From the NCBI RefSeq assembly GCF_024612015.1, contig NZ_CP102512.1, positions 6,944,001 to 7,008,000 of the forward strand: DNA of 64,000 bases, read 5' to 3'. Below are positions 35,551-50,057 of this stretch, piece by piece. The stretch's first letter is position 1. Every line of letters starts with the position of its first letter. The notes under the pieces were generated by a model. That model worked only from the letters and a program-made list of their open reading frames with translations, had not been told where the DNA came from and did no database searches. The stretch comes from Streptomyces sp. CA-210063 (lineage in GTDB: Bacteria; Actinomycetota; Actinomycetes; Streptomycetales; Streptomycetaceae). The position numbers were made by a program, and so were the translations under genes.

Positions 35551-36399
35551 ATGACACAGAAGACCGAGCTGTACGTACCCAAGGGCGCCACCGCGAACGA
35601 CCGGTACGTCGTCGACATCGACCCCGGGCGGGCCGGCTGGACCCACAGCAGCCTGCGCATCGTGGAGTTGGGGCCGGACGGCACGCACACGTTCACGACG
35701 GGGGACAGCGAGTGGATCGTGCTGTCCCTCAATGGCGGTTGTACGGTGCGGGTATCGGGCGAATCCGGTGAATCGGGCGGCGAAGAGGGCGCAGAGTTTC
35801 AGATCCTGGGCAGGGAGAGCGTGTTCGCCGGAGTCTCCGACTTCGTGTACGCGCCCCGTGACGCCCGGGTACAGATCGCCTCCGGCGCGGGAGGCCGCTT
35901 CGCTTTGGCAGGAGCGAAGTGCGAGCGACGACTCCCCGCCCGCTACGGCCCCGCGCCGGAGGTCCCCGTGGAAGACCGCGGCAGCGGCACCTGCGCCCGG
36001 CAGGTGCGCAACTTCGCCTCCGCCGACGCCTTCGAGTGCGACAAGCTGATCACCGTCGAGGTCATCACCCCCGGCGGCAACTGGTCCTCGTACCCGCCGC
36101 ACAAGCACGACGAGAACCGGCCGGGCGAGGAGACCGAGCTCGAAGAGATCTACTACTTCGAGATCGAGGGTCCGGGCGGCTTCGGATACCAGCGGGTGTT
36201 CCCCTCCCGCGAGGGCGGTTCCGACGTCCTCGCGGAGGTCCGTTCCGGTGACGCGGTGCTCGTTCCCGACGGCTGGCACGGCCCGTCCATCGCGCAGCCC
36301 GGCCACAGCATGTACTACCTGAACGTGATGGCCGGTCCGGGCTCCGAGCGGCAGTGGCGGATCTGCTTCCACCCGGAGCACACGGAGGGGTACCGATGA
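35551..36399 (+). CDS. iolB: 5-deoxy-glucuronate isomerase
   Basis: A 282-residue bicupin. The C-terminal cupin has the metal-site motif SSYPPHKHDE with a later Glu (ETELEEIYYFEI) and GWHGPSIAQPGHSMYYLNVM. IolB converts 5-deoxy-glucuronate to 2-deoxy-5-keto-gluconate, the substrate of IolC. It starts 7 bases after the aldolase gene and overlaps iolD by four bases (ATGA). A Gly/Glu-rich insertion (SGESGESGGEEG) lies in the first cupin. Confidence 0.93.
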   Translation: MTQKTELYVPKGATANDRYVVDIDPGRAGWTHSSLRIVELGPDGTHTFTTGDSEWIVLSLNGGCTVRVSGESGESGGEEGAEFQILGRESVFAGVSDFVYAPRDARVQIASGAGGRFALAGAKCERRLPARYGPAPEVPVEDRGSGTCARQVRNFASADAFECDKLITVEVITPGGNWSSYPPHKHDENRPGEETELEEIYYFEIEGPGGFGYQRVFPSREGGSDVLAEVRSGDAVLVPDGWHGPSIAQPGHSMYYLNVMAGPGSERQWRICFHPEHTEGYR

Positions 36400-38279
36400 G
36401 CACGACCCGGCTTACGGTCGCCCAGGCACTGGTCCGCTTCCTTTCCGCCCAGTACACCGAGCGTGACGGCGAGCGGCAGCGGCTGATCGGTGCCACCTGG
36501 GGCATCTTCGGCCACGGCAATGTCGCGGGCCTCGGCCAGGCGTTGATCGAGTACGCCGACGACATGCCGTACCTCCAGGGCCGCAACGAGCAGGCGATGG
36601 TCCACGCGGCCGTCGGCTACGCCCGGCAGTCGGGCCGCCTCTCCACGCACGCCGTGACGACGTCGATCGGCCCGGGCGCCACCAATCTCGTCACCGGTGC
36701 CGCACTCGCCACGATCAACCACCTCCCGGTCCTGCTCCTCCCCGGCGACATCTTCGCCACCCGGCCCGCGGACCCGGTTCTCCAGCAGCTCGAAGTCCCG
36801 TACGCGGGCGACATCAGCGTCAACGACTGCCTGCGCCCGGTGTCGAAGTACTTCGACCGGATCACCCGCCCCGAGGCCCTGATCCCGGCCGCGCTCCAGG
36901 CGATGCGCGTCCTCACCGACCCCGTCGAGACGGGCGCGGTCACGCTCGCCCTCCCGCAGGACGTGCAGGCGGAGGCGTACGACTGGCCGGAGGAGTTCTT
37001 CGCCGAGCGGACCTGGTACGTCCGCCGTCCGGCCGCCGACGCGAGCGAACTGGCCGCCGCCGTACGGGCGATCCGAGAGGCCCGCCGCCCCCTGATCGTC
37101 GCCGGTGGCGGCGTCCACCACGCCCGCGCCGAGGAGGCGCTCGCCGAACTCGCCGACGCCACCGGCATCCCGGTCGCCTCCACCCAGGCCGGCAAGGGCT
37201 CGCTGCGTCACGACCACCCGCAGGACGTGGGCGGCATCGGCCACACCGGCACCGCGACCGCGAACGAACTCGCCCGCACCGCCGACCTGGTGATCGGCGT
37301 GGGCACCCGGTACACGGACTTCACCACCGCCTCCGGCACCCTCTTCGCCGCCGACGGCGTCCGCTTCCTCAACCTCAACATCGCGCCCCACGACGGCCAC
37401 AAGCTCTCCGGGCTGCCGCTGATCGCGGACGCGCGAACGGGGCTGGAGGCGCTCACCGAGGCGCTGGCGCGGCATGGACACCGGGTCGCGGACGCGTACG
37501 TCGCCGAGTACGCGGAGGACAAGCAGCGCTGGGAGCACCGCGTCGACGCCTGCTACGAGGCCGACGAGCCGGACACCCGGCCCACCCAGGCCCAGGTCCT
37601 CGGCCTCCTCGACGAGATCGTCGACGAGTCCGACATCCTCATCAACGCGGCCGGTTCCCTCCCCGGTGACCTGCACAAACTGTGGCGGGCGCGGTCGCGG
37701 GACCAGTACCACCTGGAGTACGGCTACTCCTGCATGGGGTACGAGATCCCGGCCGCGATCGGCGTCCGTATGGCCGCCCCCGGGCGCCCGGTGTGGGCGC
37801 TGGTCGGCGACGGCACGTATCTGATGATGCCGACGGAGATCGTCACGGCCGTGCAGGAGAACATCCCGATCAAGGTGCTGCTCGTGCAGAACCACGGGTA
37901 CGCGTCCATCGGCGGCCTCTCGGAGACGGTCGGCGGTGAGCGGTTCGGCACCGCCTACCGGCACCGCAACCCCGACGACGGCCTGTTCACGGGTGCCCCG
38001 CTGCCCGTGGATCTCGCCGCCAACGCGGCCAGTCTCGGCCTGCGCGTCCTGCGCGCCAAGACGGTCCGTGACCTGCGCGCCGCCCTCGCCGAGGCGCGGG
38101 CGGCCGACACTCCCACATGTGTCTACGTGGAGACCGAAACGGCAGACACAGTGTCGGGCCCGCCTCCCGCGCAGGCCTGGTGGGATGTTCCTGTGGCCGA
38201 GACCGCGACCCGCTCGTCGGCGGTCAAGGCCCGCGAGGAGTACGACCGGCACGTCTCAACCCGACGCCGCCATCTGTGA
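36396..38279 (+). CDS. iolD: 3D-(3,5/4)-trihydroxycyclohexane-1,2-dione hydrolase
   Basis: A 627-residue thiamine-diphosphate enzyme of the acetohydroxyacid-synthase superfamily. The N-terminal Pyr domain has the catalytic Glu in GRNEQAMVHAAVGYAR, the middle domain is Rossmann-like, and the C-terminal PP domain shows VGDGTYLMMPTEIVTAVQEN then HGYASIGG. IolD opens the ring of the diketo-inositol to 5-deoxy-glucuronate. Start overlaps the iolB stop. Confidence 0.94.
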   Translation: MSTTRLTVAQALVRFLSAQYTERDGERQRLIGATWGIFGHGNVAGLGQALIEYADDMPYLQGRNEQAMVHAAVGYARQSGRLSTHAVTTSIGPGATNLVTGAALATINHLPVLLLPGDIFATRPADPVLQQLEVPYAGDISVNDCLRPVSKYFDRITRPEALIPAALQAMRVLTDPVETGAVTLALPQDVQAEAYDWPEEFFAERTWYVRRPAADASELAAAVRAIREARRPLIVAGGGVHHARAEEALAELADATGIPVASTQAGKGSLRHDHPQDVGGIGHTGTATANELARTADLVIGVGTRYTDFTTASGTLFAADGVRFLNLNIAPHDGHKLSGLPLIADARTGLEALTEALARHGHRVADAYVAEYAEDKQRWEHRVDACYEADEPDTRPTQAQVLGLLDEIVDESDILINAAGSLPGDLHKLWRARSRDQYHLEYGYSCMGYEIPAAIGVRMAAPGRPVWALVGDGTYLMMPTEIVTAVQENIPIKVLLVQNHGYASIGGLSETVGGERFGTAYRHRNPDDGLFTGAPLPVDLAANAASLGLRVLRAKTVRDLRAALAEARAADTPTCVYVETETADTVSGPPPAQAWWDVPVAETATRSSAVKAREEYDRHVSTRRRHL

Positions 38280-38295
38280 GCAAGGAGTTTCTGGC

Positions 38296-39798
38296 ATGAC
38301 GAAGATCGTCAACCACTGGATCGGCGGCAAGACCGTCGAAGGCGCGTCGGGTACGTTCGGGCCGGTCACGGACCCGGCGACCGGCGCGGTCACCACCAAG
38401 GTCGCCTTCGCGACCGTGGGCGAGGTCGACGCGGCGGTCCGCACCGCCAAGGAGGCCTTCGCCACCTGGGGCCAGTCCTCGCTGGCCCAGCGCACCTCCA
38501 TCCTGTTCAAGTTCCGCGCGCTGCTCGACGCCAACCGTGACGCGATCGCCGAGCTGATCACCGCCGAGCACGGCAAGGTGCACAGCGACGCGCTCGGCGA
38601 GGTCGCGCGCGGCCTGGAGATCGTGGACCTGGCCTGCGGCATCAACGTCCAGCTGAAGGGCGAGCTGTCGACGCAGGTCGCCAGTCGCGTGGACGTCGCC
38701 TCCATCCGCCAGCCGCTGGGCGTCGTCGCGGGCATCACGCCGTTCAACTTCCCGGCGATGGTCCCGATGTGGATGTTCCCGATGGCCATCGCGACCGGCA
38801 ACACCTTCGTGCTGAAGCCGTCCGAGAAGGACCCGTCGGCCTCGATCAAGATCGCCGAACTGCTGTCGGAGGCGGGCCTGCCCGACGGCGTGTTCAATGT
38901 GATCCACGGCGACAAGGTGGCGGTGGACCGCCTCCTGGAGCACCCGGACGTCAAGGCGATCTCCTTCGTCGGCTCGACCCCGATCGCCCGCTACATCCAC
39001 ACCACGGCCTCCGCCAACCACAAGCGCGTCCAGGCCCTGGGCGGCGCCAAGAACCACATGCTGGTCCTCCCGGACGCGGACCTGGACGCGGCGGCGGACG
39101 CGGCGGTCTCGGCGGCGTACGGCTCGGCCGGCGAGCGTTGCATGGCCATCTCGGCCGTGGTGGCGGTAGGCGCGATCGGCGACGAACTCGTGGACAAGAT
39201 CCGCGAGCGCGCCGAGAAGATCAAGATCGGCCCCGGCAACGACCCCACGTCGGAGATGGGCCCGCTGATCACCGCCGTGCACCGCGACAAGGTGGCGTCC
39301 TACGTCACGGGCGCGGCCGAAGAGGGCGCGGAAGTGATCCTCGACGGCACGGGCTACACGGTCGACGGCTTCGAGGACGGCCACTGGATCGGCATCTCGC
39401 TCCTCGACAAGGTGCCCACGACCGCGAAGGCGTACCAGGACGAGATCTTCGGCCCGGTCCTCTGCGTCCTCCGCGTGGACACGTACGAGGAGGGCATCTC
39501 CCTCATCAACGCCTCCCCGTTCGGCAACGGCACCGCGATCTTCACCCGCGACGGCGGCGCCGCCCGCCGCTTCCAGCTGGAGGTCGAGGCCGGCATGGTC
39601 GGCGTCAACGTCCCGATCCCGGTTCCCGTCGGCTACCACTCCTTCGGCGGCTGGAAGGACTCCCTCTTCGGCGACCACCACATCTACGGCAACGACGGCA
39701 CCCACTTCTACACCCGGGGCAAGGTCGTCACCACCCGCTGGCCCGACCCGGCCGACGCCCCCACAGGCGTGGACCTCGGGTTCCCGCGCAACCACTGA
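38296..39798 (+). CDS. mmsA: CoA-acylating methylmalonate-semialdehyde dehydrogenase
   Basis: A 500-residue aldehyde dehydrogenase of the MmsA/IolA subgroup. It has NHWIGGKTVEGASG, GITPFNFPAMVPMWMFPMAI, and the nucleophile Cys282 in GSAGERCMAIS, without the Glu that hydrolytic ALDHs use. It converts malonate semialdehyde (from inositol) or methylmalonate semialdehyde (from valine) to acetyl- or propionyl-CoA. GGAG lies 8 bases before the ATG. It closes the iol operon. Confidence 0.94.
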   Translation: MTKIVNHWIGGKTVEGASGTFGPVTDPATGAVTTKVAFATVGEVDAAVRTAKEAFATWGQSSLAQRTSILFKFRALLDANRDAIAELITAEHGKVHSDALGEVARGLEIVDLACGINVQLKGELSTQVASRVDVASIRQPLGVVAGITPFNFPAMVPMWMFPMAIATGNTFVLKPSEKDPSASIKIAELLSEAGLPDGVFNVIHGDKVAVDRLLEHPDVKAISFVGSTPIARYIHTTASANHKRVQALGGAKNHMLVLPDADLDAAADAAVSAAYGSAGERCMAISAVVAVGAIGDELVDKIRERAEKIKIGPGNDPTSEMGPLITAVHRDKVASYVTGAAEEGAEVILDGTGYTVDGFEDGHWIGISLLDKVPTTAKAYQDEIFGPVLCVLRVDTYEEGISLINASPFGNGTAIFTRDGGAARRFQLEVEAGMVGVNVPIPVPVGYHSFGGWKDSLFGDHHIYGNDGTHFYTRGKVVTTRWPDPADAPTGVDLGFPRNH

Positions 39799-40027: not shown

Positions 40028-40300
40028 ATGGTCATCCAAAAGATGCACGACATGGGCATCCGCAGCGAACACGCCTACCTCGCCGCCTTCGGCAGCATCG
40101 GCCTCTCCATCGCCACCTGGGTGACATCTCTCAAAGCCGAACCCGTCGGCGGCCTGGCCCGCGCAGACCGCTGGGGCATCTTCATCGGCGAATGGGCACC
40201 CACCTTCTTCGGCCTCGGCGTGGCCCTCTCCCACTACGAACAACAAGACGGCACCCTCACCGCCAGCGTCCACGAACTTCGCGAACAAAAGGCCGGCTGA
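40028..40300 (+). CDS. Small two-helix membrane protein
   Basis: A 90-residue protein with two hydrophobic segments (about 17-34, AYLAAFGSIGLSIATWV; about 50-66, FIGEWAPTFFGLGVAL) joined by a short basic loop, and an acidic/polar tail. No family recognised. ACGGAG stands 8 bases before the ATG. It lies within the segment bounded by direct repeats of the mmsA tail and uses more A-ending codons (GAA, AAA) than the iol genes, which hints at separate origin. Confidence 0.7.
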   Translation: MVIQKMHDMGIRSEHAYLAAFGSIGLSIATWVTSLKAEPVGGLARADRWGIFIGEWAPTFFGLGVALSHYEQQDGTLTASVHELREQKAG

Positions 40301-40320
40301 CTGCGGGTCATCCCGGGGGT

Positions 40321-40337
40321 CCGCGCAACCACTGAGC
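40321..40337 (+). repeat. Direct repeat of the mmsA tail, right copy
   Basis: Identical to 39784-39800. Followed by an 8-bp hairpin (40352-40359/40371-40378, CCGCGCCC) that may be the original downstream terminator of mmsA. Confidence 0.85.
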
Positions 40338-40386
40338 CGCACCGTCTCGGCCCGCGCCCTTGTGTTTCAGGGGCGCGGCCGCTGGA

Positions 40387-40416
40387 GGACGGGTCGGGCA
40401 GGGGCGGCGGGGGCGA
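40387..40416 (+). repeat. Dispersed repeat B, copy 2
   Basis: Shares its final 17 bases with 30764-30780, and looser similarity upstream. Again it follows a hairpin-rich AGGGGCGCG segment after a gene end. Confidence 0.7.
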
Positions 40417-40562
40417 CTTATCAGGTTGCTGTCAGGTCCGTTCCCCACCCCCGCATACCGCGACCGCTGTATGCCGAATTCCCCCCGTACGACCGTGGGA
40501 TGCCCCACTCTTCCCCCCTGAGGGGGCCATGAGGCACCGGCAGGGCCCCTTACCGTTGACGC

Positions 40563-43220
40563 ATGGATCTTCGACTGCCCGGACTGCGACTGCGCGCGGC
40601 GCTGCGGCGGAGGCCGCGGCGGGCCCTCGCCGCCGCGGCCGCCGTCGTCGTGCTCGTCGGCGCGGGCACCTGGACCGCCACCGCCTCGGACGAAGCGGCG
40701 CCGGTGAAGCGCACCGACCAGGCCATGGGCACGGCCGAGGGCGTGCGCATCGACACCTCGTACTTCACCTCCGGCACCGGCGGTCGCCGCCCCGCCGTTC
40801 TGCTCGCGCACGGCTTCGGCGGCAGCAAGGACGACGTCCGGCAGCAGGCCGAGGACCTCGCCCGGGACGGCTACGCGGTGCTGACCTGGTCGGCCCGCGG
40901 CTTCGGAGAGTCGACCGGCAAGATCGGGCTGAACGACCCGAAGGGCGAGGTCGCGGACGTCTCGAAGCTGATCGACTGGCTCGCGAAGCGCCCCGAGGTC
41001 CAGCTGGACAAGGACGGCGACCCCCGGGTGGGCGCCGCCGGCGCCTCGTACGGCGGGGCGGTGTCGCTGCTGGCCGCCGGATACGACGACCGCGTCGACG
41101 CCGTCGCGCCCGCGATCACGTACTGGAACCTGTCGGACGCCCTGTTCCCGAACGGCGTCTTCAAGAAGCTGTGGGCCGGCATCTTCTTCAACACCGGCGG
41201 CGGCTGCGACAAGTTCGAGACCCGGCTCTGTGAGATGTACCAGCGGGTCGCCGAGTCCGGGCAGCCCGACGCCGAGGCCGTGAAGCTCCTCGACGAGCGC
41301 AGCCCCGAGGCCGTCGGCGATCGTATCGACGTGCCCACGCTGCTGCTCCAGGGCCAGACCGACTCCCTCTTCCCGCTCGGCCAGGCCGACGCCGCCGCCG
41401 AGGCGATCAAGGCCAACGGCGCGCCCGTGGACGTCGACTGGATCTCCGGCGGCCACGACGGCGGCGACATGGAGGCGGACCGCGTCCAGTCCCGCGTCAA
41501 CGCCTGGTTCGACCGCTATCTGAAGGACGACAAGGGAGCGGACACCGGTTCGGCGTTCCGCGTCACCCGCACCCTCGGCACCGGCTCCGGGGACGGCGAG
41601 CCCCGCCTGAGCGGTACGATCGACGACGCGTACCCGGGCCTGGAGAGCGACCCCACGTCGATCGCCCTCGCCGGACGCGAGCAGAGCTTCGAGAACCCGG
41701 CCGGCGCCAACCCGCCCGCCGTGTCGGCCCTGCCCGGCCTCGGCGCCGCCGGCGGCCTCTCCCAGCTGTCCTCGCTCGGCGTCAGCATCTCCCTCGACTT
41801 CCCCGGCCAGTTCGCCGCGTTCCAGTCGGAGCCCGTCGCGGACGACCTCCAGATCACGGGCTCGCCCACGGCCACGGTCCATGTGAAGTCGACCAGCGAG
41901 GACGCCGTCCTCTTCGCCAAGGTCTACGACGTCGGCCCGAACGGCACCTCCCAGGTGCTCCCCTCGCAGCTCGTCGAGCCCATCCGGGTGGAGGGCGCCA
42001 AGTCCGGCAAGGACGTCGAGCTCACCCTCCCGGCCATCGACCACGAACTCGACGACGGCCACAGCCTGCGCCTGGTCCTCGCTTCCACCGACCTCGGCTA
42101 TGCCTCCCCGGCGACCCCGGCGACGTACACCGTCTCCCTGAAGGGCGACCTGGAGGTGCCCACGCCGCTCGGCCGGGCCGACCGGACGGACGTGCTGCCG
42201 GCCTGGGTCTGGTACCTGCCGATCAGCGGCGCGGTGATCGCCGCGATCCTGCTGGTCACCGGCCGCCGCCGCATCGTCACCCCCGCCCCCGATCCCGCGC
42301 TCGCCGAGGTCCCGCTCCAGATCACCGATCTGAGCAAGAAGTACAAGAACGGCGACCGCTACAGCGTCCGCGACCTCTCCTTCCGTGTCGAGAAGGGCCA
42401 GGTCCTCGGCCTCCTCGGACCGAACGGCGCGGGCAAGACGACGACCCTGCGCATGCTGATGGGTCTGATCCAGCCGGACGGCGGCCAGATCCGCGTCTTC
42501 GGTCACGCGATCGTGCCGGGCGCCCCGGTGCTCTCCCGGGTCGGCGCCTTCGTCGAGGGCGCGGGCTTCCTCCCGCACCTGTCCGGCCGCGAGAACCTGG
42601 AGCTGTACTGGCAGGCCACCGGCCGCCCCGCCGAGGACTCCCACCTGGACGAGGCCCTGGAGATCGCCGGCCTCGGCGACGCCCTGGCCCGCGCGGTCCG
42701 CACCTACTCCCAGGGCATGCGCCAGCGCCTGGCCATCGCCCAGGCCATGCTCGGCATGCCCGACCTGCTCATCCTCGACGAGCCGACGAACGGACTCGAC
42801 CCGCCGCAGATCCGCGAGATGCGCGAGGTCATGATCCGCTACGCGGCGGCCGGCCGTACCGTCATCGTCTCCAGCCACCTGCTGGCGGAGGTCGAGCAGA
42901 CCTGCACGCATCTCGTCGTCATGGACCACGGCAAGCTCGTCCGGGCGGGCCAGGTGAGCGACATCGTCGGCTCCGGCGACACGCTGCTGGTCGGCACGTC
43001 CGAGCCCCTGGACGAGCCCATGGTCGAGAAGATCGCCGCCCTGCCGGGTGTCGACTCGGCCGTGCGCGCCGCCGACGGCCTGGTGGTCCGCCTCGACGCC
43101 GACGGCAGCGCCCAGCGCCTGGTCGCCGAACTCGTCCGGCTGGAGGTCCCCGTGGAGTCGGTCGGCCCCCACCGCCGCCTCGAAGACGCCTTCCTCACCC
43201 TGATCGGAGAGTCCGCATGA
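40563..43220 (+). CDS. Membrane-spanning fusion: extracytosolic S15-like hydrolase plus ABC ATPase
   Basis: An 885-residue protein. Basic N-terminus and first helix (20-37), then an alpha/beta hydrolase of the X-Pro dipeptidyl-peptidase/CocE type (50-330) with likely triad Ser162 (GASYGG), Asp267 (QTDSLF) and His298 (GGHDGG), and its C-terminal jelly-roll (340-535). A second helix (548-566, VWYLPISGAVIAAILLVTG) returns to the cytosol, where residues 583-885 form an ABC ATPase: Walker A GPNGAGKT 619-626, signature YSQGMRQR 715-722, Walker B DLLILDE 734-740. Thus hydrolase outside, motor inside. The next gene, overlapping by four bases, is its permease. TACCGT ends 7 bases before the ATG, suggesting a leaderless message. 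Function unknown. Confidence 0.9.
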   Translation: MDLRLPGLRLRAALRRRPRRALAAAAAVVVLVGAGTWTATASDEAAPVKRTDQAMGTAEGVRIDTSYFTSGTGGRRPAVLLAHGFGGSKDDVRQQAEDLARDGYAVLTWSARGFGESTGKIGLNDPKGEVADVSKLIDWLAKRPEVQLDKDGDPRVGAAGASYGGAVSLLAAGYDDRVDAVAPAITYWNLSDALFPNGVFKKLWAGIFFNTGGGCDKFETRLCEMYQRVAESGQPDAEAVKLLDERSPEAVGDRIDVPTLLLQGQTDSLFPLGQADAAAEAIKANGAPVDVDWISGGHDGGDMEADRVQSRVNAWFDRYLKDDKGADTGSAFRVTRTLGTGSGDGEPRLSGTIDDAYPGLESDPTSIALAGREQSFENPAGANPPAVSALPGLGAAGGLSQLSSLGVSISLDFPGQFAAFQSEPVADDLQITGSPTATVHVKSTSEDAVLFAKVYDVGPNGTSQVLPSQLVEPIRVEGAKSGKDVELTLPAIDHELDDGHSLRLVLASTDLGYASPATPATYTVSLKGDLEVPTPLGRADRTDVLPAWVWYLPISGAVIAAILLVTGRRRIVTPAPDPALAEVPLQITDLSKKYKNGDRYSVRDLSFRVEKGQVLGLLGPNGAGKTTTLRMLMGLIQPDGGQIRVFGHAIVPGAPVLSRVGAFVEGAGFLPHLSGRENLELYWQATGRPAEDSHLDEALEIAGLGDALARAVRTYSQGMRQRLAIAQAMLGMPDLLILDEPTNGLDPPQIREMREVMIRYAAAGRTVIVSSHLLAEVEQTCTHLVVMDHGKLVRAGQVSDIVGSGDTLLVGTSEPLDEPMVEKIAALPGVDSAVRAADGLVVRLDADGSAQRLVAELVRLEVPVESVGPHRRLEDAFLTLIGESA

Positions 43221-44107
43221 GCACGCTGGCCGAGCGCGCCGAACGCGGCGACCCCGCGGCACCCGTGGAGGTCGCCGACGGCTACCGCGCGGGCCGCACC
43301 CTGCCCTTCAGGGTCGAGCTGGTCCGGCAGCTGAAGCGCCGGCGCACGATGGTCATGGGCGGCATCCTGTTCGCCCTGCCGCTCGTGCTGCTGATCGCCT
43401 TCCAGGTCGGCGGCACGCCCGGCGAGGGCAACAACCGGGTGAACCTGATGGACACGGCCACCGCGTCCGGCGCGAACTTCGCCGCGGTGAACCTGTTCGC
43501 CGCGGCGGGCTTCCTGCTCGTCATCCCCGTCGCCCTGTTCTGCGGCGACACGGTCGCCTCGGAGGCCAGCTGGTCCTCCCTGCGCTATCTCCTCGCCGCG
43601 CCCGTGCCACGCGCCCGGCTGCTGTGGTCCAAGCTCGCCGTGGGGCTCACGCTCAGCCTGGCGGCGCTCGTGCTGCTGCCGGTCGTCGCGCTCGCCGTCG
43701 GCACGGCCGCCTACGGCTGGGGCCCGCTGGAGCTGCCCACGGGCAGTGAACTCGCCCCGGGCGCCGCCGCCCAGGCCCTGCTGATCACCGTGGCGTACAT
43801 CTTCGTGTCCCAACTGGTCACCGCCGCCCTGGCGTTCTGGCTCTCCACGAAGACCGACGCCCCGCTCGGCGCGGTCGGCGGCGCCGTCGGCCTCACCATC
43901 GTCGGCAGTGTCCTCGACGAGGTGACCGCCCTCGGCGACTGGCGCGACTTCCTCCCCACGCACTGGCAGTACGCCTGGCTGGACGTCGTCAACCCGCAGC
44001 CGGACTACACTGACATGATCCAGGGCGTCTCCATCTCCATAACGTACGCGCTGGTGCTGTTCGCCCTGGCCTTCCGGGGTTTCAGCCGCAAGGACGTCGT
44101 CTCGTAG
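43217..44107 (+). CDS. ABC-2-type permease partner of the hydrolase-ATPase fusion
   Basis: A 296-residue protein with a cytosolic N-terminal arm and about six hydrophobic helices (FALPLVLLIAFQVGG, FAAAGFLLVIPVALFCGDTV, SLAALVLLPVVALAVG, and others), the plan of ABC-2 exporters, including the cytosolic SLRYLLAAPVPRARLLWSKL coupling region. Overlaps the fusion gene by four bases (ATGA), so the two form one transporter with export direction expected. Confidence 0.88.
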   Translation: MSTLAERAERGDPAAPVEVADGYRAGRTLPFRVELVRQLKRRRTMVMGGILFALPLVLLIAFQVGGTPGEGNNRVNLMDTATASGANFAAVNLFAAAGFLLVIPVALFCGDTVASEASWSSLRYLLAAPVPRARLLWSKLAVGLTLSLAALVLLPVVALAVGTAAYGWGPLELPTGSELAPGAAAQALLITVAYIFVSQLVTAALAFWLSTKTDAPLGAVGGAVGLTIVGSVLDEVTALGDWRDFLPTHWQYAWLDVVNPQPDYTDMIQGVSISITYALVLFALAFRGFSRKDVVS

Positions 44108-44188
44108 GTCAACGGAGGATCACCCACCGGTCTCGACGGGCCCCCGCCGTGGCCGCTTCGAGACGCATCCGCAACACCCCGTAGCGCA

Positions 44189-44269
44189 CATCCGGGCCCC
44201 CTCCGCCGTCACAGTCACAACAGTCGCCCACGGAAAGGCGACAGGTGACGTGGCTAGGGGGCCCGGATG
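44189..44269 (+). promoter_or_regulatory. Three nested stems covering the ribosome site and start of the VWA gene
   Basis: Outer stem: 44189-44202 with 44256-44269, 14 perfect pairs (CATCCGGGCCCCCT). Middle: 44207-44212 with 44245-44250 (CGTCAC). Inner: 44223-44228 with 44237-44242 (GTCGCC, loop CACGGAAA). The right outer arm contains both the AGGGGG ribosome site and the ATG, so folding would hide them. It could be a translational switch; a terminator for the ABC operon is the alternative. Confidence 0.6.
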
Positions 44270-45886
44270 CACACGTATCGCAGGACCAGGACCAGGACCA
44301 GGACGACCACGCGGCCGAGGCCGACGGCACGGCGACGGCTGAGCACCGCGCTCCTCGCCCTGGGCACGGCAGGCGCCCTGCTCCTCACCGGCTGCGGCGC
44401 GAGCGGCGGCGACAACTCGTCGTCGTACGACCGGGGACAGGCCGACAGCCGCCCCGACGACGGCTTCCCGGCCCCGGCCCCCGAGGGCACCGGCCCCGAC
44501 GAACAGCGGGGCGAGCAGCCGGACGACGAGTCCCGGGACATCGCCCCGTCCCCCGACCACCTCTCCACCTTCGCCCTCGACGTCGACACCGCCTCCTACG
44601 GCTACGCCCGCCGCACCCTGGACGACGGCGGCCTGCCCGACCCGTCGACGGTCCGGCCGGAGGAGTTCGTCAACAGCTTCCGCCAGGACTACGAGCGCCC
44701 CGACGGTGACGGCTTCTCGGTCACCGTCGACGGCGCCCGGACAACCGACGACAGCCATGACGGGGACTGGTCCCTCGTCCGCGTCGGCCTCGCGACCCGC
44801 GCCGCCGAGGGCGACAGTGAACGCCCGCCCGCCGCCCTCACCTTCGTCATCGACGTCTCCGGCTCCATGTCCGAACCGGGCCGCCTCGACCTCGCCCAGG
44901 ACGCACTGCGCACGATGACGAACCGGCTGCGCGACGACGACTCCGTCGCCATCGTCACCTTCAGCGACGAGGCCGAGACCGTCCTGCCGATGACCCGCCT
45001 CGACGACCACCGCGGCCAGATCCGTGAGGCGGTCGACGGCCTGGAACCCACCGACTCCACCAACCTCGCCGCGGGCGTCGAGACCGGCTACGAGACCGCC
45101 GTCGAAGGCCTGCGCAAGGGCGCCACCAACCGTGTCGTGCTCCTGTCCGACGCCCTCGCCAACACCGGCTCCACCGACGCCGACACCATCCTCGAACGCA
45201 TCGCGAGCGAACGCCGCGAGCACGGCATCACCCTCTTCGGCGTCGGCGTGGGCAGCGACTACGGCGACGCCCTGATGGAACAGCTCGCCGACAAGGGCGA
45301 CGGCCACACCACGTACGTCTCCACCGAGGAGGAGGCCGAGAAGGTCTTCTGCGAGGAACTCCCGCGCCATGTCGACCTCACGGCCCGCGACGCCAAGGCC
45401 CAGGTCTCCTTCGACCCGGAGACGGTCGAGGAGTTCCGCCTGATCGGCTACGACAACCGGCAGGTCGCCGACGAGGACTTCCGTGACGACCGCGTCGACG
45501 GCGGCGAGGTGGGCCCCGGCCACACCGTCACCGCCCTCTACGTCGTCCGCACCAAGTCCGGCGCCGAAGGCCACCTCGCCACCGCCACCGTCCGCTGGCT
45601 CGACCCCGACAGCCGCACCCCGCACGAGGAATCAGCCGACCTGGAGGCCTCCTCCCTGCACGGCGACCTGTGGGCCGCCTCCCCGTACGGCCTCCAAGTA
45701 GCCGCCGTGGCCGCCTACTTCGCCGACTCCCTCCGCCAGGAGGACACCCGCTGGTCCGGCCTCCCGGGCCGCCCCTCGATCCGCGAACTGGGCTTCCGCG
45801 CCGACGACTTGGCGAGGGCCCGCGAGGACAAGGACGTGTACGACCTGGCTGACACGATCGAGAGGGCGGACCGGCTGATGGGTTAA
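44267..45886 (+). CDS. von Willebrand factor A domain lipoprotein (YfbK-like)
   Basis: A 539-residue surface protein. Arg/Thr-rich N-terminus, hydrophobic signal and lipobox LLTGC (Cys43) predict a lipoprotein. Then a charged linker, a von Willebrand N-terminal domain (LSTFALDVDTASYGYARRTL), a VWA domain with MIDAS DVSGS at 196-200 (FVIDVSGSMSEPGRLDLAQD), and a C-terminal DUF3520-like region (ARDAKAQVSFDP; AAVAAYFADSLR). The family is thought to bind metal and partner proteins at the membrane; role unknown. The start lies in a strong hairpin. Convergent with the chorismate mutase gene, sharing stop bases. Confidence 0.88.
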   Translation: MHTYRRTRTRTRTTTRPRPTARRRLSTALLALGTAGALLLTGCGASGGDNSSSYDRGQADSRPDDGFPAPAPEGTGPDEQRGEQPDDESRDIAPSPDHLSTFALDVDTASYGYARRTLDDGGLPDPSTVRPEEFVNSFRQDYERPDGDGFSVTVDGARTTDDSHDGDWSLVRVGLATRAAEGDSERPPAALTFVIDVSGSMSEPGRLDLAQDALRTMTNRLRDDDSVAIVTFSDEAETVLPMTRLDDHRGQIREAVDGLEPTDSTNLAAGVETGYETAVEGLRKGATNRVVLLSDALANTGSTDADTILERIASERREHGITLFGVGVGSDYGDALMEQLADKGDGHTTYVSTEEEAEKVFCEELPRHVDLTARDAKAQVSFDPETVEEFRLIGYDNRQVADEDFRDDRVDGGEVGPGHTVTALYVVRTKSGAEGHLATATVRWLDPDSRTPHEESADLEASSLHGDLWAASPYGLQVAAVAAYFADSLRQEDTRWSGLPGRPSIRELGFRADDLARAREDKDVYDLADTIERADRLMG

Positions 45887-46509
45887 AGCTTGTCGTCACA
45901 CACGGACGGCAACGCCCGCGCCAGTCCCTCCCCATGCAGCCGGTCCAGCCGGTGTTCGAACGCCGACCGCACCGCCGCCACCCGCAGCCGAGGCTCGCAC
46001 GACGCCCCGGCTCGCAGGGGCTCCGTGTCCTGGAGCGCGGTCAGCAGCCGCGTGGTGATCCGGTCGAGGACCGGCCGGACGTCCTTCACGAGGTCGGGCC
46101 GCTCGGTCGGCCGCTCCTCCGGGTGAGCGTCCCAGCGGGCGTAAAGGCCGTGCTGCACCAGCTTGTTCGCCTCGATCTGATCCCGGAACACGGCGGTCAC
46201 GGCATCCGGATCGAGGCCGAGCCCCACCGCCCGAGCCGCCACGTCGTCCAGGATCGCCTTCTCCCGCACGGGATCGTCGATCGGCGTGGTCGTGCCGTAC
46301 TTGGCCGCCGCCACCTTGTCCGCGACGAGCAGCCGCTCCGCGAACAGATCCGTCAGCACGGTGAGCGACCGGGCTCCCGCAGCCGTACGAGGGGGAGCGG
46401 AGGAGGACTCGGCGACGGCCGGTACGGCACCGGGCAGAGCCACGGCGGACGCGACACAGACGGAGACACAGGCGGAGATCAGGACGGACCTGAGGCGGTG
46501 GGGGCGCAT
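45883..46509 (-). CDS. Exported chorismate mutase (AroQ-gamma type)
   Basis: A 208-residue protein with a signal peptide (cleavage likely after VAES or AVA) and an all-helical AroQ-gamma chorismate mutase domain: LTDLFAERLLVADKVAAAKY, IDDPVREKAILDDVAARA, VTAVFRDQIEANKLVQHGLY, ARW. These supply the Arg, Lys, Glu and Gln active-site residues. The enzyme converts chorismate to prephenate; exported forms occur in mycobacteria and some streptomycetes, where the purpose is unclear. Two Cys in the tail (ASCEPRL; SVCDDKL) could form a disulfide, as in the secreted M. tuberculosis enzyme. Confidence 0.88.
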   Translation of the reverse strand: MRPHRLRSVLISACVSVCVASAVALPGAVPAVAESSSAPPRTAAGARSLTVLTDLFAERLLVADKVAAAKYGTTTPIDDPVREKAILDDVAARAVGLGLDPDAVTAVFRDQIEANKLVQHGLYARWDAHPEERPTERPDLVKDVRPVLDRITTRLLTALQDTEPLRAGASCEPRLRVAAVRSAFEHRLDRLHGEGLARALPSVCDDKL

Positions 46510-49052: not shown

Positions 49053-49160
49053 TGTAGCGGGGCAGCCACCCCGATTGTGTCTCGGCCGGCCTTGGCCCGT
49101 TTCTACGGTGCCAAGGCCGGCCTTTCCCCCTTCTGGAACAAGCAGGAAGACAACAAGATA

Positions 49161-50057
49161 GTGCGACAGACCCTGAGTAAGGGAATGGTGGCGGCGGCGG
49201 CCGCGACGGGCATTCTTTCCCTGTACAGCTCCTCGGCGCTCGCGGACTCGGGCGCGCACGGCGTGGCCGAAGGCTCGCCCGGCGTCCTGTCGGGCAACAA
49301 CGTCCAGGTTCCCGTGCACGTTCCCATCAACGCCTGCGGTAACACCGTCGACGTCGTCGGTGTCGGCAACCCGGCCTTCGGCAACGCCTGTGTCAACGAA
49401 AGCTCGACGTCACCGGAGTTCCACGAGGCTCCCGCCCACGGCACTTCCGGGCACGACGACGGGAAGGGAGCGCACGGACCCTCGGACGAGCACGGTCCCT
49501 CGGACGAGCACGGTCCCTCAGGCCCGCACAAACACGCGGGGGAGCATGGTCACGCTGAGGGGCACGCTCCCTGGGACGCGCCCGTCTCCGCGGAGGAGCA
49601 CGATTCCTCGGACTCGCACAAGGCCTCTGGTGCCTCGGCGCACGGCGTGGCCGAAGGCTCGCCCGGCGTCCTGTCGGGAAACAACGTCCAGGTGCCGGTG
49701 GACATCCCGGTCAACGTCTGTGGGAACACCGTGGACGTGCTCGCCGCGCTCAACCCCGCGTTCGGCAACGAGTGCGTCAACGCCGGGTCGCCGAAGGGTC
49801 CCGAGGCTCCCCCCACGGAGCACCGCGACACCCCGCCGGACGAGCCTCAGCACCAGCCGCCCACGACCCCTCGGGTGACTCCGCCCGCCAAGCCGCCCAC
49901 GACCCCACCGGGCAAGCCTGTCATCACCCCACCGGGGACGCCGACCATGGCGGAGACCGGCAGTGACGGTCTGCTCGCGACCTCGGCCGCCAGCGCCGCG
50001 CTGCTCGCGGGCGGGGCCATCCTGTACCGGCGGCGCCGAGTGTCCTCCCGCCGGTGA
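49161..50057 (+). CDS. chpC: Long chaplin, two chaplin domains with sortase signal
   Basis: A 298-residue protein. GTG start (RQTLSKGMV), signal peptide to about residue 29, chaplin domain 1 (31-79), a His/Gly/Ser-rich spacer with DEHGPS repeats, chaplin domain 2 (159-207), a Pro/Thr wall-spanning region (APPTEHRD to TPPGTP) and a sorting signal MAETG (263-267) followed by a hydrophobic helix and RRRRVSSRR. The LAXTG-like motif fits streptomycete class E sortases, which would anchor it to the wall so short chaplins can assemble. Domain copies share a 41-base identical DNA run. Confidence 0.92.
   Translation: MRQTLSKGMVAAAAATGILSLYSSSALADSGAHGVAEGSPGVLSGNNVQVPVHVPINACGNTVDVVGVGNPAFGNACVNESSTSPEFHEAPAHGTSGHDDGKGAHGPSDEHGPSDEHGPSGPHKHAGEHGHAEGHAPWDAPVSAEEHDSSDSHKASGASAHGVAEGSPGVLSGNNVQVPVDIPVNVCGNTVDVLAALNPAFGNECVNAGSPKGPEAPPTEHRDTPPDEPQHQPPTTPRVTPPAKPPTTPPGKPVITPPGTPTMAETGSDGLLATSAASAALLAGGAILYRRRRVSSRR

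Follow-up and report, generated by a model that had tools for sequence, protein, structure and literature searches.

The motor subunits of ATP-binding cassette (ABC) transporters are as a rule confined to the cell interior, and exported cargo is usually processed by enzymes that are either separate proteins or cytosolic. The C39 peptidase-containing transporters (PCAT) unite enzyme and ABC motor in one polypeptide and couple export to cargo processing; their defining N-terminal domain, the C39 peptidase, is a cytosolic cysteine enzyme in an exporter with a fused membrane domain. In NosDFY and FtsEX, an ABC motor acts on an extracytoplasmic partner that is a separate protein. Here we analyze a gene pair in a 64,000-nucleotide stretch of Streptomyces sp. 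CA-210063 (NZ_CP102512.1, positions 6,944,001 to 7,008,000, within one contig of 10.86 Mb), referred to as the window, in which a single 885-residue protein joins a putatively extracellular alpha/beta hydrolase to an ABC ATPase and is followed by an overlapping ABC-2 permease gene. In contrast to the C39 transporters, the enzyme is of the serine type, probably lies outside the cell, and is fused to an ABC-2 ATPase subunit; a Pfam scan of the fused protein found no C39 domain and assigned the hydrolase to Peptidase_S15/Abhydrolase_1. Unlike the permeases of NosDFY and FtsEX, that of the window belongs to a family whose sequence profile matches no solved chain.

The nearest described parallel is the nisin resistance pair SaNSR and NsrFP of Streptococcus agalactiae, for which PMC5786555 describes an outer serine hydrolase anchored in the membrane and an ABC efflux pump encoded alongside it. 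There the components come from separate genes, SaNSR being a serine protease and NsrFP a BceAB-type transporter with a large outer loop, whereas the window encodes one chain with an alpha/beta hydrolase and uses an ABC-2 permease. The lantibiotic immunity and resistance transporters LanFEG and CprABC likewise combine an ATPase with six-helix permeases and are among the best NCBIfam neighbors of the window proteins, which do not reach the cut-offs of these models; no enzyme is attached to them in the account given by PMC5786555. SCO3110-3111 of S. coelicolor was considered as an analogue and set aside, since we judged it from PMC3123327 to be a different transporter type. Our search of the open-access literature, with most subscription journals and preprints outside its scope, returned no description of the fusion. 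Some database records name the protein ‘putative X-Pro dipeptidase/ABC transporter’, so annotators had already seen the architecture. Many other records name only the hydrolase (‘CocE/NonD family hydrolase’ or ‘alpha/beta fold hydrolase’), and further ones only the transporter (‘ABC transporter ATP-binding protein’); either kind of single-function name conceals half of the fused protein.

Anatomy of the fused gene and its permease

The fused gene lies at 40563-43220 (+; 885 amino acids) and the permease gene at 43217-44107 (+; 296 amino acids). The stop of the first overlaps the start of the second by four bases (ATGA, at 43217), with GGAGAG just upstream; a scan of 40200-44400 found no σ70-type promoter. 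All parts of the fused protein are encoded on the same forward strand. An N-terminal signal (residues 13-39, 40599-40679) comprises an Arg-rich start and a Kyte-Doolittle hydrophobic core at about 21-39, and is followed by an AxA-like site. The alpha/beta-hydrolase domain spans residues ~60-320 (40740-41522, the end at 320 being approximate; Pfam Peptidase_S15 at 60-267) and contains an HGFGG motif, the triad Ser162 (GASYGG), Asp267, and His298, and the pair Cys215 and Cys223 (41205-41231). Next come a PepX_C jelly-roll domain (Pfam, residues 418-521, 41814-42125), a membrane helix predicted from hydropathy (residues 547-565, 42201-42257) and followed by TGRRR, and an ABC ATPase with a C-terminal extension (residues 583-885, 42309-43217; ABC_tran at 603-743), which carries Walker A at 619, the signature SQGM at 716, Walker B at 735, and the H-loop at 770. 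The permease has six hydrophobic stretches and matches ABC2_membrane_4 (36 bits, cut-off 27) and ABC2_membrane_2 (35.2 bits, cut-off 27.2). By sequence, complete ATPase motifs and a cognate ABC2_membrane permease make the transporter half a candidate ABC-2 exporter. These domains and motifs bear out an earlier note on this DNA, which had described one protein with a complete hydrolase triad and a complete ABC ATPase, overlapped by an ABC-2 permease gene.

The same note had named an internal stop or a separate start dividing hydrolase from ATPase as the finding that would count against a single protein. We saw no stop and no convincing start: residues 520-605 contain no ATG and three GTG codons (532, 544, and 558), and no good ribosome site was seen in the sequence before any of the three. 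GC content at third codon positions is 92-99% in all 100-codon windows of the open reading frame and 96-97% across the junction. In an alignment of 50 fused rows (49 different genes, L025 and L048 being one and the same), Met is absent from the stretch 535-590 in 44 rows and present in six, in which an internal start is possible.

We next consider on which side of the membrane each half lies. By hydropathy, as opposed to a dedicated predictor, all 50 rows have one hydrophobic stretch at the N-terminus and another before the ATPase. The proposal that the hydrolase lies between two transmembrane helices is not supported in that form: residues 547-565 may be a true helix, while the first stretch may be either an anchor or a signal peptide, since it resembles the latter in some relatives (a lipobox, LTLGAC, in L033 and AxA sites in L031, L032, L034, and L036). 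In either case the proposed topology holds, with the N-terminal signal, the helix followed by basic residues, and a clade-specific Cys pair all pointing to a hydrolase outside and a motor inside. Cys215 and Cys223 occur in 48 of 50 rows; of the 97 cysteines counted in the hydrolase region, 96 belong to this pair, and the other two rows have none there. In the tree set described below, the pair is found in 54/54 fused rows, 13/13 rows of a nested unfused clade, and 0/17 other relatives (ten of them gapped at the first position). Because paired, clade-specific cysteines resemble the disulphide of an exported domain, this predicted disulphide, a marker of the fused clade, suggests an extracellular hydrolase, as support and not as proof.

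The hydrolase half combines an alpha/beta hydrolase and a jelly roll (Peptidase_S15, 75 bits with cut-off 23; PepX_C, 56.9 bits with cut-off 22.5). It passes the NCBIfam model of the CocE/NonD subfamily (TIGR00976, 100.2 bits against 66.3) and misses the Xaa-Pro dipeptidyl-peptidase models widely (NF003780, 55.5 against 642 bits; NF003781, 11.8 against 881 bits). PepX proper carries an N-terminal domain, and the Pfam scan of the fused protein gave no match to the N-terminal PepX family. On these two grounds the label of S15 dipeptidase was abandoned. The nearest solved chains, with the single sequence and with a profile, were 8yzn/8yzo, deposited as ‘Lipase’ (a literature search under the identifier 8YZO found no paper), followed mostly by esterases, cutinases, and poly(ethylene terephthalate) hydrolases; cocaine esterase 1l7r was matched through its C-terminal part. 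Since the CocE/NonD model is passed and the nearest solved chains are of these kinds, we expect an esterase- or lipase-like enzyme rather than a dipeptidyl peptidase. The ‘Lipase’ 8yzn/8yzo, the CocE/NonD hydrolases, and PepX (S15) share the alpha/beta hydrolase plus jelly roll, but an ABC ATPase is attached only in the fused protein.

For the transporter half, lantibiotic-protection and daunorubicin-resistance models score best in NCBIfam, all of them below cut-off (ATPase: drrA, 179.8 against 312.45, and galliderm_ABC, 176 against 309.75; permease: MutG, 24 against 117.2, and MutE, 21 against 145.2). Families of the drrA and lantibiotic types move amphipathic compounds outward, as PMC5786555 states for LanFEG. 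One 17.9-kb contig encodes hydrolase, ATPase, and permease in a single chain of 1196 residues (P0187), which suggests that the three work together, although this is a lone case in which a stop may have been lost through sequencing error. In P0187 the permease follows a proline-rich linker that retains an apparent old start (MITGYRR).

A related plan is encoded by separate genes. The closest ATPase in the window’s own genome outside the fused gene (42% identity) belongs to L209:2350-5661 (-), at about 4122349-4125660 of the genome, where a LolA/DUF2092-like protein, an ABC ATPase, and an ABC-2 permease (28% identity) stand in a row. The first of these has an N-terminal hydrophobic stretch and weak family matches (DUF2092, 22.5 bits with cut-off 21.2; lolA, 25 against 112). 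A LolA-like gene is present in 30 of 31 family genomes, and an ATPase match adjoins it in 10 of 12 loci (one partial), with none within the stretch examined in the other two. Like the fused pair, the set places outer domain, ATPase, and permease side by side; it differs in having three genes and an outer protein that is LolA/DUF2092-like, not an enzyme. Judged by these matches, the plan of a putative outer domain, motor, and permease occurs both as separate genes and fused.

Distribution and descent of the fusion

A search for the architecture across actinobacteria showed that the fusion recurs far beyond the window genome. A list of 120 homologues has 81-100% identity to the 885-residue query over 95-100% of its length, the closest named ones being from Streptomyces. 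Amongst 61 genomes of the same bacterial family, 49 gave a strong match (E of 1e-80 or better), which lies in one long open frame in 48 and is spread over two contigs in G038. Searches of 246 genomes from the class and 296 from the phylum gave long-frame matches in many families, some of them outside the class, and the organisms named in the 120 best rows of each of three homologue searches are Actinomycetota as far as their names tell. Two genomes of ~1.35 Mb carry the fused gene; in the family of L030, a 1.35-Mb contig, it is present in two of the five genomes listed, in a listing of the class that leaves out 31 genomes without a match. The pair is also found on a 386-kb Tsukamurella plasmid (L247, NZ_LR134452.1, 219332-222591), with the same four-base overlap as in the window and annotated as ‘alpha/beta fold hydrolase’ followed by ‘ABC transporter permease’.

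By coordinates, we retrieved 71 fused loci from many actinobacterial families: that of the window, plus sets of 40, 20, and 10. These were chosen for a strong match in a long frame, a procedure that selects for the fused state and not for the permease, and the permease is the next gene in 71/71. A second, named scan used a hydrolase-only alignment as the query and retained the best 80 of at least 546 relatives, a sample hence biased to close relatives; 77 of the 80 loci are fused and 74 have the permease. Five of the six loci lacking it meet contig ends, either after a fused gene and before any permease (L129, L142, and L150) or within the gene (L140 and L173). The sixth is L169 (145-2199, on a 4083-base metagenome contig of the Geodermatophilaceae): its hydrolase frame comes to a stop, and no ATPase was found on the remainder, reflecting either a real split or a sequence error. 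Carriers in the named scan include Williamsia, Rhodococcus, Micromonospora, Geodermatophilus, Actinomadura, Amycolatopsis, and Lentzea. In this sample the orthologues are mostly one gene; orthologues that always formed two genes were the other finding proposed as evidence against the fusion.

Both active sites are conserved. All 50 aligned rows share the Ser-Asp-His triad and, in the ATPase, the Walker lysine, signature, Walker B, and H-loop without variation; Thr626 is replaced by Ser in one row, and the HGFGG motif keeps its His in 47/50 and its final Gly in 48/50. Relative to the window, the ten printed rows that come from other families are 36-57% identical in the hydrolase, 58-77% in the ATPase core, and 19-35% in the helix and linker. 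The spacing from Asp510 to Leu590 is nevertheless 77-87 residues in 45 of 50 rows, with values of 93, 98, 106, 113, and 118 in the remainder. A length held near-constant despite such low identity is what would be expected of a mechanical link.

Unfused relatives of the hydrolase lack the transporter. A permease homologue was found beside 0 of 30 unfused hydrolases (sets of 20 and 10), and in four of these loci (L050, L065, L066, and L073) some ABC ATPase of 28-32% identity lies nearby on the opposite strand. One of the four, the window genome’s own paralogue at 1721182 (L065), was tried as a split version of the fusion and rejected, since its hydrolase has 533 residues, its ABC ATPase lies on the other strand, and a permease homologue is lacking. 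A tree of hydrolases from 54 fused and 30 unfused rows shows two switches of the fused label: an unfused clade of 13 rows, together with the fused L071, lies inside the fused group. These 13 (L049-L058, L067, L068, and L076) have no ATPase or permease homologue alongside, keep the triad and the Cys pair in 13/13, and show extra cysteines in 11/13. In the ATPase tree, 22 fused ATPases including that of L071 form one clade (99% by the Shimodaira-Hasegawa-like approximate likelihood-ratio test, SH-aLRT) apart from 28 others, and the ATPases of the LolA-like sets form one of the clades next to it. Both trees are quick and midpoint-rooted, and in the ATPase tree three pairs of long branches join, all away from the fused clade, while the row of L242 is filled to only a quarter. 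Read together, they support a single old fusion followed by one later loss of the motor, and the fusion looks like an ancient, well-kept join: a motor tied through the membrane to an enzyme that probably lies outside, apparently retained from an early ancestor of the actinobacteria.

Recording the neighbors of the fused loci across actinobacteria, as the earlier note had suggested, showed the permease to be constant and gave no other partner that crosses families. Two of the 30 best neighbor clusters, in a procedure that also yielded many spurious antisense clusters, cross family lines, one acyl-CoA-ligase-like (10 loci) and one of the major facilitator superfamily (MFS) type (5 loci). The ligase lies near 2/37 fused loci outside the family and 1/80 in the named scan, compared to 1/30 unfused loci; for the MFS protein the figures are 2/37, 2/80, and 0/30. 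Because these counts are close to those of unfused loci, both were rejected as partners, and the genomic context points to no cargo.

Proposed coupling of hydrolase and transporter

The data firmly support the anatomy of the pair, namely its domains, gene order, conserved active sites, and near-constant linker length; from it we infer a mechanism, with its direction, cargo, reaction, and stoichiometry. The best explanation, which we rate somewhat below an even chance, is an ABC-2 exporter that would hand its cargo to a tethered, esterase-like hydrolase outside the cell. Following the general build of ABC-2 transporters, the working complex would contain two fused proteins and two permeases. 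ATP-driven movement would push an amphipathic cargo, probably acylated or ester-bearing, outward through or along the permease, and the alpha/beta hydrolase, which the membrane helix and short linkers would keep close to the outer mouth, would cleave or transfer an ester or amide of the cargo as it emerges. Also somewhat below an even chance, in our view, is that such proteins form a phylum-wide class of ABC machines whose ATPase subunit itself crosses the membrane and terminates on the other side in a catalytic domain; a single power stroke would then move the cargo and at the same time present it to the outer enzyme or switch that enzyme on. Several results weigh against the exporter reading. 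Twelve of the 61 family genomes, including one of ten from the same genus, gave no strong match; the permease profile, built from 27 sequences, retrieved no match among the solved chains at E values up to 1, NosY included; no neighbor was conserved across families beyond the level seen in unfused loci; and a lineage of 13 rows kept the hydrolase without the motor, so the enzyme may be useful alone.

A different purpose for the same parts would be defense, in which the permease extracts foreign membrane-active compounds, such as lantibiotics, lipopeptides, or ester antibiotics, from the membrane and the tethered hydrolase inactivates them, making the protein the equivalent of SaNSR and NsrFP in one molecule. 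The best-scoring models of the transporter half, below cut-off as they are, lean in this direction, and a changing target could explain why the hydrolase is more variable than the ATPase core in the ten other-family rows. The encoding of the membrane-anchored protease SaNSR with the efflux pump NsrFP, as described in PMC5786555, offers a precedent. However, retention in 49 of 61 family genomes and in the two ~1.35-Mb genomes is closer to housekeeping than to defense, and no conserved cross-family neighbor accompanies the pair. PADLOC models match the ATPase half and, weakly and once, the permease (18.9 bits), and on this basis an assignment to a defense system was rejected; we consider a defensive role unlikely.

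Equally, the motor might transport nothing and instead transmit force, ATP hydrolysis shifting the helix and permease so as to switch or power the outer hydrolase. FtsEX drives cell-wall hydrolases in this manner, and NosFY likewise NosD; NosF belongs to NosDFY, a system acting on NosD in the periplasm. The covalent linkage would provide a direct route for force, the link between jelly roll and ATPase is near-constant in length, and NosF is the best-scoring bacterial chain amongst the 60 solved chains listed. Against this stand an ABC-2 permease and an ATPase whose best matches are of drug and lantibiotic type, which suggest real transport, the failure of the permease profile to find any NosY chain, and the existence of motor-less relatives of the hydrolase, such that force transmission without transport seems improbable to us. 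Whether ATP hydrolysis is relayed to an enzyme across the membrane, or export and processing are one step, is a question for which the fused protein is a ready system.

It is more doubtful still that the halves are merely co-localized, with the hydrolase cleaving unrelated outer substrates for nutrition while the pump exports independently. The nested unfused clade, with triad and Cys pair intact and no ATPase or permease homologue adjoining, indicates that the enzyme works alone; but the fusion has apparently lasted from a single origin, at near-constant spacing and with one loss in the tree, and a loose pairing would be expected to split more often. Finally, antisense frames are also long in this GC-rich DNA (984 amino acids on the minus strand), but recurrence of an identical fusion in many independent genomes and in 77/80 named loci, together with codon-position GC that is coding-like along the whole open reading frame, rules out an assembly or frameshift error, a chance frame, or a split gene, leaving artefact a negligible explanation.

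Surrounding genes

Within the genus, synteny around the fused gene is conserved, with inositol genes, a VWA protein, a ligase, and a chaplin recurring. In the window, inositol-catabolism-like genes lie 5' of the fused gene at 35551-39798 (+), encoding a KduI/IolB family protein and a thiamine-pyrophosphate enzyme; the frame that follows these two is presumably aldehyde-dehydrogenase-like. Downstream, a VWA/YfbK-type protein is encoded at 44267-45886 (+), the 3' end of its gene sharing four bases with the end of a convergent gene at 45883-46509 (-) for a type II chorismate mutase whose start resembles a signal peptide. Further on, at 49077-50057 (+), lies a gene for a protein with two ChpA-C (chaplin) stretches and a C-terminal tail, AETG followed by a helix and RRR, that resembles a sortase signal.

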